Virus record (IMG/VR): IMGVR_UViG_3300031521_000321
Span: 1 to 26,000 of that record
DNA: 26,000 bases
Direction: 5' to 3' (one strand)
Source: a virus
The translations under genes and the position numbers were made by a program. Under the pieces are notes generated by a model. That model did no database searches. It worked only from the letters and a program-made list of their open reading frames with translations, and was not told the DNA's origin. Positions 262 through 26,000 of this stretch are shown one piece after another. How positions within the stretch are numbered: position 1 is the stretch's first letter; every line of letters starts with the position of its first letter.

Positions 262-594
262 ATGAAAAGATTAAAATATATGAGAAAACAATATAAAATG
301 TCAAGGGATGAATTAGCACTTAAACTTGGTGTTAGTTACTCAACTGTTGCAGCTTTTGAACAATGTGTTCGTGATCCAAGTGTAGAAACTTTGATTAAAT
401 TAGCTAATATGTTTGAATGCTCCATAGATTACTTAGTAGGGAATGACTATCAGTTTAAAGATGTTATTAGCACAAAGGAAGTTAAAAAAGAAAATAGCAT
501 TGAGGATACAATCGAGAGTTTCGTTAAGGATTTAAAGAAACAGATTAGAGAAGAAGTTAAAAAAGAAGTGAGTTTACAAGTAAAAGGTAAATAA
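262..594 (+). CDS. XRE-family transcriptional regulator (repressor-like)
   Basis: This 110-residue protein starts with a compact HTH_3 (Cro/CI-like) domain over about residues 5-60: MSRDELALKLGVSYSTVAAF is the helix-turn-helix, followed by DPSVETLIKLANMFECSIDYLVG, the typical end of the domain. The remainder (about 65-110) is charged and probably helical, rich in Lys and Glu, without the peptidase or dimerisation domain of full-length LexA/CI repressors. It likely binds operator DNA as a dimer and represses phage or plasmid genes. An Asp-Tyr-Leu-Val-Gly ending is common in SinR/ImmR-like proteins. It has its own promoter and a terminator directly behind, so it is a single-gene unit. Start chosen because of the strong ribosome binding site six bases upstream. 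Family assignment is firm; the regulated target is not known. Confidence 0.88.
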   Translation: MKRLKYMRKQYKMSRDELALKLGVSYSTVAAFEQCVRDPSVETLIKLANMFECSIDYLVGNDYQFKDVISTKEVKKENSIEDTIESFVKDLKKQIREEVKKEVSLQVKGK

Positions 595-949: not shown

Positions 950-988
950 AAATTCAAAAAACTTAATATAAAATTATCGTTCTTATAT

Positions 989-1058
989 ACTTCCATTAAA
1001 AAATGGTTTTCTTAACTTCACAAATTAAGTTTATCATAGTTTTTTAAAAAATGGAAGT
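989..1058. repeat. Inverted repeat ahead of the large RNA
   Basis: ACTTCCATT (989-997) and AATGGAAGT (1050-1058) are perfect inverted copies 52 bases apart. The left copy also forms a small hairpin of its own (CCATT with AATGG, 993-1006). Between them lies a weak promoter candidate for the plus strand (TTCTTA 1009-1014, TATCAT 1032-1037, 17-base spacing). Role unknown; it may be a regulatory site or part of a longer RNA fold. Confidence 0.4.
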
Positions 1059-1064
1059 GCATAG

Positions 1065-1710
1065 GTTTAGTTTCTTGCTAAATTTTTTAAGCGAATGAGG
1101 ATTTCCCTTGGTGGAATGACAGTACAAATATACGTTTAAATATGAGAAGAATATACAATTGTTTAAAGGGATGATAATTTTATTTTAGGTATTTGCAGTT
1201 CGTGCATCAACTAAGGTGTATAGTAGGACGAGCCATACAACTACTTAAAATAAGAAGAAAGATCATTCCCTTATGATCGTTGCAAAGTAGATTGAAATAC
1301 ATCTAAAGGGGCAGTAATTATTCATGGGATAACCATGTCTAAAACTCATTTCACTACTTACGAGGGTTACTGTGGTGATGTCAGCCATGAATTGGACAGG
1401 GATAACAGGATAAATGGAACTTCTGACCTTGATTAACTATCAAGGGGCATTTAAACCATCAAAAGGCGAGGGCAGAATGTAGCTTATATATGGGTTTATT
1501 ATGAATAAGTAGTGTATTAATGGGGGCATATGAAGACTCAAAGGCTTATATTATAATTCGGTCTAGTATTAAGTATGCTTTTTGTGTGCTTGATGCTAGG
1601 CTGAATTATATCCAAAAACAATCAGATCTAAAGGCTTATATGGTTTATTATATGATCTAGTGGTTAAAATATACTATAGGTATATACATTAAAATTAAGC
1701 AAAAAGAACC
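1065..1710 (+). ncRNA. Candidate large ornate non-coding RNA (ROOL/GOLLD-like in character)
   Basis: About 640 nt without a credible ORF but dense in helices. The two ends pair: TTGCTAAATTTT (1075-1086) with AAAATTAAGCAA (1691-1702), 11 of 12 pairs. Inside are TTTGCA/TGCAAA (1192-1197 with 1281-1286), GATCAT/ATGATC (1261-1266, 1273-1278), GCAGTAA/TTACTGT (1311-1317, 1367-1373) enclosing CATGG/CCATG (1323-1327, 1333-1337), TTCTG/CAGAA (1421-1425, 1473-1477) enclosing CCTTGAT/ATCAAGG (1427-1433, 1439-1445), and a 27-bp helix 1552-1578 with 1584-1610 that has seven G-U pairs and no mismatch. G-U pairs become A-C clashes on the other strand, so the RNA reads from the plus strand. The motif GCTTATAT recurs at 1482, 1543 and 1633. 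Size and phage-plasmid setting recall ROOL and GOLLD RNAs; I cannot confirm class membership without a covariance model. Exact ends are estimates. Confidence 0.6.
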
Positions 1711-1727
1711 TAAAATAAATTAGGTTC
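1701..1727 (-). terminator. Terminator of the partition/RHH operon
   Basis: GAACCTAA (1706-1713) pairs with TTAGGTTC (1720-1727); on the minus strand the stem is followed by TTTTTGC. It lies just behind the stop of the 1736-1954 gene. On the plus strand it lacks a T run, so it is not an obvious end for the large RNA. Confidence 0.75.
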
Positions 1728-2048: not shown

Positions 2049-2207
2049 CTATTCATCTTTGGTATTAAGTGTTGGCAATGGTGACAAACCCCTTAAAATG
2101 TCTTTTATGTGTGCTGCTGCATTAGAATATTTATTAAGTTCACTATATAATACAACATCGTCTATTTTCTTTTCATTGAACTCAAGTACAATTCGTAGTC
2201 TACTCAA
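2049..2207 (-). CDS. Small RHH-like plasmid protein (52 aa, TTG start)
   Basis: The longer open frame starts at 2303, but the credible start is TTG at 2205-2207, eight bases behind AGGAG (2216-2220); an N-terminal extension would run through a region holding a terminator and read as unlikely membrane sequence. The 52-residue product begins MSRLRIVLEFNEKKIDDVVL and continues YSELNKYSNAAAHIKDILRG. A basic beta-strand (RLRIVLEF) followed by two helices, the second beginning near AAAHIKDIL, suggests a minimal ribbon-helix-helix fold as seen in small plasmid-encoded proteins next to partition genes. It is separated from the upstream parB-like gene by a terminator (2271-2299), so it may have its own promoter. 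Exact function is unknown; a DNA-binding role in replication or partition control is inferred. Confidence 0.62.
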   Translation of the reverse strand: MSRLRIVLEFNEKKIDDVVLYSELNKYSNAAAHIKDILRGLSPLPTLNTKDE

Positions 2208-2620: not shown

Positions 2621-2654
2621 TTAGTATTTAATATTAATACTAGATACTAATATT
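2621..2654. repeat. 13-bp-period repeat cluster between parA and parB-like gene
   Basis: Three related octamers start exactly 13 bases apart: TTAGTATT (2621), TTAATACT (2634) and CTAATATT (2647). Read on the minus strand they match the A(G/A)TATTAA repeats upstream of parA. The first two also form the imperfect palindrome AGTATTTAATATTAATACT (2623-2641). Likely operator or centromere sites for the RHH protein. Confidence 0.5.
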
Positions 2655-3405
2655 ATTTTAATTTTGATAATATTTCATAGTATAGGTTTTCGTATGGCTC
2701 CGCATATTTACTGTTATATTCCTGTATTGTCTTATTATCTGCCACCGCTTCTTTATATTTGATACTATTATAAACAATGCTAGTAAATAAATCTTCTTCA
2801 AATTGTTCTGAAACTACCTCACTTATTTGCTTAGAAAAAGAAGTCTTTCTGTCAAAATTATTTCTTAAAACACCTAGTAATTTAATATTATTATTTAGTC
2901 CATTTTCTTTGATGTTATTTACAAGATTTGAAACCAAATTTAAACCTTGTAATGCAGACGTACTGTTATCTATAACCTCTATATAATGGCTGCTCATAGA
3001 TAAAGCATTAGTTGTGCATATACCTAAAAAAGGCGAATTATCAATTATAATCAAATCAAAATAATTATTAAAATTAGAGAATTTATTTTTTAAAATAGTT
3101 TCTCTAGTCATTTTATTATGTAATTCACTTTCTAAAATTGCGGATTCGATTGTATTTGGAATTATGCTTATAAAGTCATTGTATTTAACTATGCAATCCT
3201 CAACTTTTATCTTTGAATTTGAATATAAATCATACAACGTGTACTTGTGGTCCACATCTAAAATTTGTGACAAATTAGATTGTGAATCATTGTCTATAAG
3301 AAGTACTTTGTGGCCAAACTTTGCGAATTGCCCCGCTATGTTTAATGTAGATGTTGTTTTGCCTACTCCACCTTTGACATTTATTATAGATATTATATTA
3401 GACAT
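2653..3405 (-). CDS. parA: ParA/Soj-family partition ATPase
   Basis: 250 residues, usual length for a small (type Ib) ParA without an N-terminal regulatory domain. The deviant Walker A motif KGGVGKTT is at residues 11-18, with the signature Lys11; Walker A' region IDNDSQSNLS is at 37-46 (Ser replaces the common Pro); Walker B FDLIIID is at 116-122. It would bind ATP, dimerise, coat the nucleoid non-specifically and, with a ParB-type partner bound to parS repeats, distribute plasmid copies at division. Its partner is very probably the RHH protein directly downstream. It has a good promoter (3446-3474) and repeat clusters at both ends. ParA next to phage lysis genes, where an integrase is expected, indicates that the prophage is carried as a plasmid. 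Homologues also act in chromosome segregation, but the short form and RHH partner fit a plasmid. Confidence 0.92.
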   Translation of the reverse strand: MSNIISIINVKGGVGKTTSTLNIAGQFAKFGHKVLLIDNDSQSNLSQILDVDHKYTLYDLYSNSKIKVEDCIVKYNDFISIIPNTIESAILESELHNKMTRETILKNKFSNFNNYFDLIIIDNSPFLGICTTNALSMSSHYIEVIDNSTSALQGLNLVSNLVNNIKENGLNNNIKLLGVLRNNFDRKTSFSKQISEVVSEQFEEDLFTSIVYNSIKYKEAVADNKTIQEYNSKYAEPYENLYYEILSKLK

Positions 3406-23612: not shown

Positions 23613-23784
23613 AATATTTATTCCTCCTAACAATTACGCTTTTTACGTGTGTTGCATCACTATTGTGCCTGTTTACGTCTTTCGTCTGACATTCCTATAT
23701 ATGTATTAAGCTTTATAGTAAGGTACTCTTCCCCTCACCTCTAAAGGTACTTATTCCCTCATAGATTTATAAAACTTAATTGTG
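23613..23784 (-). other. Gene-free gap inside the head operon
   Basis: 172 bases without a credible gene between the 137-aa gene and scaffold, unusually long for this otherwise packed operon. GTACCTT occurs twice on the minus strand (near 23750 and 23728), ACCT/AGGT forms a small hairpin near 23740, and a ten-codon frame MSDERRKQAQ is present without a ribosome site. It could be the scar of a lost gene or an RNA element; I recognise none. Confidence 0.4.
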
Positions 23785-24439: not shown

Positions 24440-26000
24440 ATGTTAAAAACCAAATTATACAATAAAAATTATAATCAATTTAATGATAATTATCAACTTA
24501 TATTACCATTAAATTTAGAAAACTTAATACCAGAAGATGATTCAGTCCGCTTGCTAAGCCATATATTGGAGGGATTAAATTATACAAAGTTGTATCAGGC
24601 GTACTCTTCCGTTGGAAGAAAACCGGCAGTGGAACCAAAAATCATGTTCAAAATAGTATCGTATGCTTATTCTCAAAATGTTTATTCTAGTAGAAAAATA
24701 GAGAAAGCATGCAAAAGAGATATAAATTTCAAGTGGCTACTTCAAGGCTATAAAGCACCTGATCATGCTACCATTAGTAGATTCCGTAAAGAATATCTTT
24801 CAAATGAAGTAATTGAAGATTTATTTTATCAACAAGTTAAATATCTAGCAGCTCAAAAGGAAATATTATTTGAAAATGTATTTATTGATGGTACTAAAAT
24901 CGAAGCGAATGCCAATCGTTATACTTTTGTTTGGAAGAAATCCATTTATAAAAATGAGGAAAAAATGTTTGATAAGATTCTTACTCTTGCTGAAAATATC
25001 AATCTTGAAGAATCGAGAGACTTTATTGTTAAAAAAGAAACATTGATATATGATATTGATAAAATTCTCGAATGGCTTTTATATGAAAAAGACAAAAGAA
25101 ACATAGAGTTTGTTCACGGTATTGGTAAAAGAAAAACTGCAATTCAGAAATGGATAGAGCAACTATTTGAATATAAAGAAAGACAAGAAAAATATAATTT
25201 CAGTAAAAACATATTATCAAAAAGAAATAGTTATTCTAAAACTGATACAGATGCAACTTTTATGCGTATGAAAGATGACCATATGAGAAATGGTCAATTG
25301 AAACCTGCATATAATGCACAAATCGCAGTTGAAAGTGAATACGTAACCGGGGTCGGAATATTTGATGATAGAAATGATATAGCAACATTAATACCTATGC
25401 TTAATAATATGCAAGAAAAAATTGGGTATAAATATCTTAATGTAATTGCAGATTCTGGTTACGAAAGTGAGGAGAACTATTTATTTTTAGAATCTAATAA
25501 TCAAACTCCGTATATAAAACCACAAACTTATGAAAAGTGGAAAAAAAGAAGTTTTAAAAATGATATTAGTAAACGTGAAAACATGAAATATGATGCAGAA
25601 TCAGATTTATATATTTGCCATAATGGTAGAAAGTTGATTCCCACCTCTATTATTAATAGAAAATCCGCCAGTGGATACAAATCAGAGGCTACTATCTATG
25701 AGTGTGAAAGCTGTGATAACTGTGCTCAAAAATCAAAGTGTACGAAAGCAAAAGGAAATAGAAAGATGCAAGTTTCAAAAACTTTTGTGGAAAAGCGTGA
25801 AATATCTTATAGAAATATCACAACTGAATTTGGAACTAAATTAAGAATGAACAGATCTATTCAGGTCGAAGGAGCATTTGGAGTTCTAAAAAGTGATTAT
25901 GAATTCAATAGATTTTTAACACGTGGAAAAAATAGTGTTAAAACTGAATTTATTTTGCTTTGTTTTGGCTACAACATTAACAAATTGCATTTAAAAATAC
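24440..26000 (+). CDS. IS1182-family DDE transposase (C-terminus beyond window)
   Basis: 520 residues are visible and the frame is open to the last base. The N-terminus has the DUF772-type domain (about 15-125: RLLSHILEGLNYTKLYQAYS, GRKPAVEPKIMFKIVSYAYS, GYKAPDHATISRFRKEYL). The DDE catalytic triad is Asp150 in ENVFIDGTKIEANANRYTF, Asp338 in LNVIADSGYESEENY and Glu477 in SIQVEGAFGVLK. Four Cys (422, 425, 428, 434: CESCDNC, then KSKC) form the zinc-like knuckle typical of the family. Full members are a little over 500 residues, so little is missing. The predicted transcript starts very near the ATG and no ribosome site is seen, so the mRNA may be leaderless, a way to keep expression low. No frameshift or internal stop: the gene appears active. 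Confidence 0.93.
   Translation, partial: MLKTKLYNKNYNQFNDNYQLILPLNLENLIPEDDSVRLLSHILEGLNYTKLYQAYSSVGRKPAVEPKIMFKIVSYAYSQNVYSSRKIEKACKRDINFKWLLQGYKAPDHATISRFRKEYLSNEVIEDLFYQQVKYLAAQKEILFENVFIDGTKIEANANRYTFVWKKSIYKNEEKMFDKILTLAENINLEESRDFIVKKETLIYDIDKILEWLLYEKDKRNIEFVHGIGKRKTAIQKWIEQLFEYKERQEKYNFSKNILSKRNSYSKTDTDATFMRMKDDHMRNGQLKPAYNAQIAVESEYVTGVGIFDDRNDIATLIPMLNNMQEKIGYKYLNVIADSGYESEENYLFLESNNQTPYIKPQTYEKWKKRSFKNDISKRENMKYDAESDLYICHNGRKLIPTSIINRKSASGYKSEATIYECESCDNCAQKSKCTKAKGNRKMQVSKTFVEKREISYRNITTEFGTKLRMNRSIQVEGAFGVLKSDYEFNRFLTRGKNSVKTEFILLCFGYNINKLHLKI

Follow-up and report, generated by a model that had tools for sequence, protein, structure and literature searches.

What, if anything, is encoded between positions 1065 and 1710 of this viral DNA, where no gene is apparent and where a preliminary description made by eye had proposed an ornate non-coding RNA of about 640 nt, carried by a phage-plasmid and belonging either to the ROOL or GOLLD classes or to a new one? 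The window, by which we mean the whole 26-kb stretch that was analysed, contains phage head, tail and lysis genes. Its major head protein is 66% like that of Clostridioides phage phiC2; this protein, Dit, a tape-measure-size ORF and a choline-binding-repeat lysozyme together indicate a clostridial phage. A plasmid-like state is indicated by a ParA partition ATPase and two perfect DnaA boxes. The phage-plasmid assignment holds on these grounds, although no replication protein was recognized in the ORFs scanned in this 26-kb piece. The placement of the candidate in non-coding DNA beside partition genes and DnaA boxes was confirmed, and the features surrounding it are as follows.

262-594, plus strand: HTH gene, upstream of the gene-free stretch
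636-644 and 665-673: a pair of perfect DnaA boxes in inverted orientation, separated by 20 bp; no other perfect box occurs in the window
984-1063, directly upstream of the candidate: inverted repeat ACTTCCATT..AATGGAAGT
1065-1710, plus strand: candidate large structured RNA, proposed from the lack of an ORF, the fold z-score and the G/C composition, with putative boundaries taken from the end helix
1736-1954, minus strand: ribbon-helix-helix (NikA-like/Arc-like) protein of 72 aa, by profile match
2049-2204, minus strand: conserved small protein of 51 aa, from an internal start in ORF 2049-2303, common to the related loci L002 and L003
2306-2599, minus strand: protein of 97 aa, a member of the minus-strand operon
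2653-3405, minus strand: ParA partition ATPase (Pfam AAA_31, 6e-39; phrog_164, 1e-48)

The ribbon-helix-helix, 51-aa and 97-aa proteins and ParA form a minus-strand operon downstream of the gap. The pair of DnaA boxes (636-673) is a possible origin of replication, and one of the boxes lies inside a plus-strand promoter-like match at 660-688. The inverted repeat at 984-1063, accompanied by a direct repeat, TTAAAAAATGG, may be an operator or promoter zone for the HTH or the ribbon-helix-helix protein. Further away, a GP20-b RNA leader (RF03003, 38.8 bits) is found on the minus strand at 23635-23691, between phage structural genes, and the related GP20-a is present in two related loci (L063 and L008). 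The window ends in an IS1182-like DDE transposase gene (DUF772 and DDE_Tnp_1_6; 24440-25999, plus strand), which runs opposite to the phage genes.

The stretch does not code for protein. ORFs of at least 50 aa are absent from both strands of 1065-1710, as the claim of no credible ORF had it, and the 727 nt from 1012 to 1738, which lack any frame of at least 60 codons, form a gap longer than any other in the window and than any in 1.22 Mb of related phage loci. A period-3 signal is absent from 1065-1710 (1.3-1.6, versus 3.6-21 in the real genes of the window), and its open fragments, the longest included, have no credible protein-family match; a hidden gene is thus ruled out by ORF scan, periodicity test and protein-family search. 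The plus strand of the region is nevertheless coding-like in base composition, with G at 0.20 and C at 0.125, compared with 0.12 for each in the flanking non-coding DNA at 896-1064. A change-point in composition was considered as proof of the boundaries and discarded, being within the range of shuffled sequences and not significant.

Whether this non-coding DNA specifies a structured RNA was judged from folding energies, expressed as z-scores against shuffled sequences. The candidate has structure beyond chance on one strand, mainly through two arms, and the elements concerned are listed here.

1075-1086, plus strand: 5' strand of the putative end helix, TTGCTAAATTTT, pairing with 1691-1702 at 11 of 12 positions
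1166-1272, plus strand: arm 1, a long interrupted hairpin of 107 nt with about 38 bp in the minimum free energy fold, by fold z-score
1540-1551, plus strand: first copy of the direct repeat AAAGGCTTATAT, immediately adjacent to arm 2
1552-1610, plus strand: arm 2, an uninterrupted 27-bp hairpin with a UUUUU loop, by pairing, fold z-score and comparison with other hairpins
1630-1641, plus strand: direct repeat AAAGGCTTATAT, copy 2, by repeat search
1691-1702, plus strand: 3' strand of the putative end helix, AAAATTAAGCAA, pairing with 1075-1086 at 11 of 12 positions

Over its whole length, the candidate reaches a z-score of -4.2 on the plus strand (matched by 0 of 200 shuffles) and of -0.8 on the minus strand, coding windows from the same phage lying between +0.35 and -1.7. 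Removal of the hairpin at 1548-1614 leaves an unremarkable -1.35, and what lies beyond the two arms folds no better than chance. The pairing of the ends is present exactly as described, 11 bases of 12, a level also reached by 2.5% of shuffled end segments, so closure of the molecule by this helix is best regarded as plausible. The 'at least eight nested helices' drawn by eye fared less well: most of them do not exceed chance, and taken together they were rejected on their number, with 57 long possible helices in the candidate against 54 +/- 7 in shuffles.

The two arms differ in how strongly they favour one strand. Arm 1 folds better than chance on both (z -5.1 on the plus strand, -3.5 on the minus strand), whereas arm 2 does so on the plus strand only (-7.5, versus about -0.25). 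No other uninterrupted local hairpin in the window is as long as arm 2, and across both strands of 2.45 Mb of related phage DNA such hairpins reach no more than 21 bp, against 27 in arm 2. The pairs of arm 2 on the plus strand comprise 20 Watson-Crick and seven G-U pairs, with no A-C combination; all seven non-Watson-Crick positions are G-U on the plus strand, and each would read A-C on the minus strand. If the changes were blind to strand, such a bias would be expected about once in 128 cases, which argues for an RNA transcribed from the plus strand. The pattern is the one expected under selection on a plus-strand RNA, and it is not expected of a DNA palindrome or of an element in decay. The case for a structured plus-strand RNA is carried by the two arms and by the all-G-U pattern of the long hairpin.

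Membership of a known class was addressed with covariance models, by running cmscan over 600-2000 with permissive filters, E<=10 and 4227 families. No Rfam family matched at its gathering score or as a credible hit at E<=10: only sub-threshold noise was returned, none of it from the large RNA classes, and ROOL, GOLLD, OLE, 6S, tmRNA and group I and group II introns were all without a match in 600-2000. The proposed assignment to ROOL or GOLLD was therefore not upheld. As a positive control, which covered the ROOL model alone, the Rfam ROOL model (RF03087) was applied to the ROOL of Lactobacillus salivarius megaplasmid pMP118 and scored 130.4 bits (E=3.7e-28).

L148, 2764-3306, minus strand: pMP118 ROOL, a proven large RNA, by ROOL model match

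This control also served to calibrate the folding test. Folded as a single sequence, the pMP118 ROOL gives a z-score of -1.4, with helices at chance level and no significant signal, so that the weak fold of the candidate outside its two arms says little against it; on this test, the candidate outscores a genuine ornate RNA. The two have much in common, including a size of 520-660 nt (pMP118, PMC5643018; the 659-nt env-120, PMC12286853), a non-coding location in a plasmid or phage of Bacillota with few carriers, and an RNA strand skewed towards G over C and A over U. The differences extend beyond the missing match to the ROOL model. The strongest possible helix of the pMP118 ROOL has 13 pairs, compared with the uninterrupted 27 bp of arm 2; the pMP118 ROOL is followed by a hairpin and a T run, a tail that the candidate lacks on its plus strand; and phage ROOLs are often, though not necessarily, close to tRNA islands, while ARAGORN detected no tRNA or tmRNA in the 26-kb window. 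GOLLD (RF01998) resembles the candidate in being large, phage-borne and expected to be structured, and differs in the absence of a match at E<=10, in that no tRNA is nearby and in length, many GOLLD RNAs exceeding 800 nt (PMC12286853). OLE RNA, at about 600 nt and from Bacillota, is similar in size and host group, but it too gave no match at E<=10, and the candidate sits in a phage-plasmid context.

No homologue was recovered. Distant blastn searches of phages and plasmids, with the whole stretch and with 1360-1482, found none, nor did the full records of 49 capsid-related phages, in which ROOL was also absent, or a covariance model of arm 1 run against 51 sources and 44 records. Every match from the RNA pattern scans of IMG/VR and GTDB was attributable to chance or to coding sequence (TPR repeats, phage genes), and weak blastn matches in two loci (L123 and L115) were dismissed because shuffled queries equalled or beat them. 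As the pMP118 ROOL was itself reported to be unique to its species by blastn (PMC5643018), invisibility to this program is not unusual for such an RNA. The closest relatives of the neighbouring module, L002 and L003, align with it at 72-74% from 2251 down to 1740, where the alignment stops; they lack the candidate element, which is thus dispensable. Long non-coding gaps in five further loci (L043, L022, L063, L070 and L068) were rejected as positional homologues, since they contain tRNAs or are repeat-rich or unrelated. One of them, the gene-free stretch 2110-2575 of L043 (fold z -2.4 on the plus strand and -0.8 on the minus strand, no Rfam match), is a possible further non-coding RNA, dissimilar to the candidate.

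It is on transcription that the RNA reading is weakest. Two terminators on the plus strand, at 602-625 and 862-888, insulate the candidate from the upstream HTH gene, which means that it would need a promoter of its own in about 890-1065. A scan of the plus strand of 890-1065 gave weak promoter matches only, none of them good, and no plus-strand terminator with a T run was found after 1702. The nearest hairpin belongs to the opposite strand.

1706-1727, minus strand: terminator-like hairpin of the ribbon-helix-helix gene, with TTTTT after it on the minus strand and no T run after it on the plus strand

The best promoter-like match inside the region is likewise on the minus strand (1632-1605, TTTAGA-16-TATAAT, 10/12), where there is also a terminator at 949-927. 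Promoter-like matches are common in this AT-rich DNA, with 17 found against 10.7 expected.

A second structured locus lies upstream, at 690-893, with a fold z-score of -3.2 on both strands. Its plus strand may specify an RNA of about 200 nt with the terminator at 862-888 as its 3' end, and its minus strand an opposing RNA of about 110 nt (about 814-705) with two hairpins, a closing stem formed by AAGUUCUUUC and GAAAGGACUU, and a U run. The promoter-like match of the latter (849-821, minus strand; TTTACA-17-TATAAT with a TG) is the best of the stretch scanned. Plasmids of the pIP501 type carry antisense and attenuator RNA pairs. This locus resembles such a copy-number pair and includes a sense-strand terminator, but there is no rep gene after it; the 640-nt candidate is not itself an antisense pair.

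How, then, is the stretch at 1065-1710 best explained? The reading that we favour, with about even confidence, is a structured RNA of about 640 nt, encoded on the plus strand as an orphan, free-standing unit beside the partition locus and possibly ROOL-like in its action. Of the explanations that do without a present RNA function, decayed DNA, left over from a mobile element or from a gene that was captured at the boundary of a module, is unlikely while retaining a real chance. The homology of the relatives ends at 1740, the edge of the candidate; the ends form a near-terminal inverted repeat of 11/12; the direct repeat AAAGGCTTATAT flanks arm 2; and the plus strand is coding-like in composition. 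Yet there is neither a period-3 signal nor a protein-family trace, and if a palindrome were decaying, A-C combinations should arise in it as often as G-U ones, along with transversions; neither A-C combinations nor transversions occur in the 27 pairs. The same hairpin weighs on a role as a DNA element, improbable in our estimate, in which the stretch would belong to a replication origin or centromere (parS) and its hairpins would act as cruciforms or be bound by proteins: DNA gains nothing from G-U pairing, and arm 2 would contain seven mismatches. ParA, the ribbon-helix-helix protein, two perfect DnaA boxes and the inverted repeat at 984-1063 do adjoin, but the boxes are 400 bp off and outside the candidate, and an iteron-like or parS-like repeat array was not found in 600-2000.

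A functional transcript of the minus strand, an antisense RNA or a long 3'-UTR RNA running from the promoter-like match at 1632-1605 to the terminator at 949-927, would account for the signals on that strand and for the folding of arm 1 there (z -3.5). We regard it as distinctly unlikely, since arm 2 collapses on the minus strand (seven A-C mismatches, z -0.25), the strand as a whole is at chance (z -0.8) and promoter-like matches are as frequent as noted above. Highly improbable is a far-diverged ROOL, GOLLD or other described large RNA missed by the Rfam models; the size range, the phage or plasmid setting and the G-rich strand would fit, and blastn failed to detect ROOL itself beyond the species that carries it (PMC5643018), but no Rfam family rose above noise in 600-2000 while the ROOL control gave E=3.7e-28, no tRNA is near and none of the 49 related phage records contains ROOL. 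Put forward tentatively, and less likely than not, is a class of its own: a large ornate RNA of phage-plasmids, separate from ROOL and GOLLD, with two long rigid arms and self-closed ends, which would assemble or act in plasmid maintenance.

For the favoured orphan RNA, a course of action can be proposed by analogy. In a clostridial phage-plasmid, an RNA of about 640 nt would be produced from the plus strand of the accessory (partition or plasmid) region. A short helix would join the ends of the molecule, and the arms at 1166-1272 and 1552-1610 would both be rigid. The molecule would be a stable structured RNA, perhaps a self-assembling scaffold as proposed for ROOL, and may aid the element in the plasmid state or the lytic one, for instance through support of its copy number. 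The analogy draws on the deletion of the plasmid-borne ROOL in L. salivarius, which lowered the megaplasmid/chromosome ratio from 1.61 to 1.16 (PMC5643018), and on the assembly of ROOL and GOLLD into RNA-only nanocages (PMC12286853).

The calibration carries a meaning of its own. Single-sequence folding misses a real ornate RNA, the pMP118 ROOL, which is a warning on the screening of large RNAs by folding energy and makes it unsafe to dismiss a locus on the grounds that it has no fold signal and no homologue. The giant RNAs of the ROOL and GOLLD type found in phages and plasmids form RNA-only cages. If the reading proposed here is true, the locus would provide a small system for testing a role in plasmid copy number, and an unrelated RNA of similar size and niche, adjoining partition genes and DnaA boxes, would be a sign that RNAs of this kind arose in mobile elements more than once.
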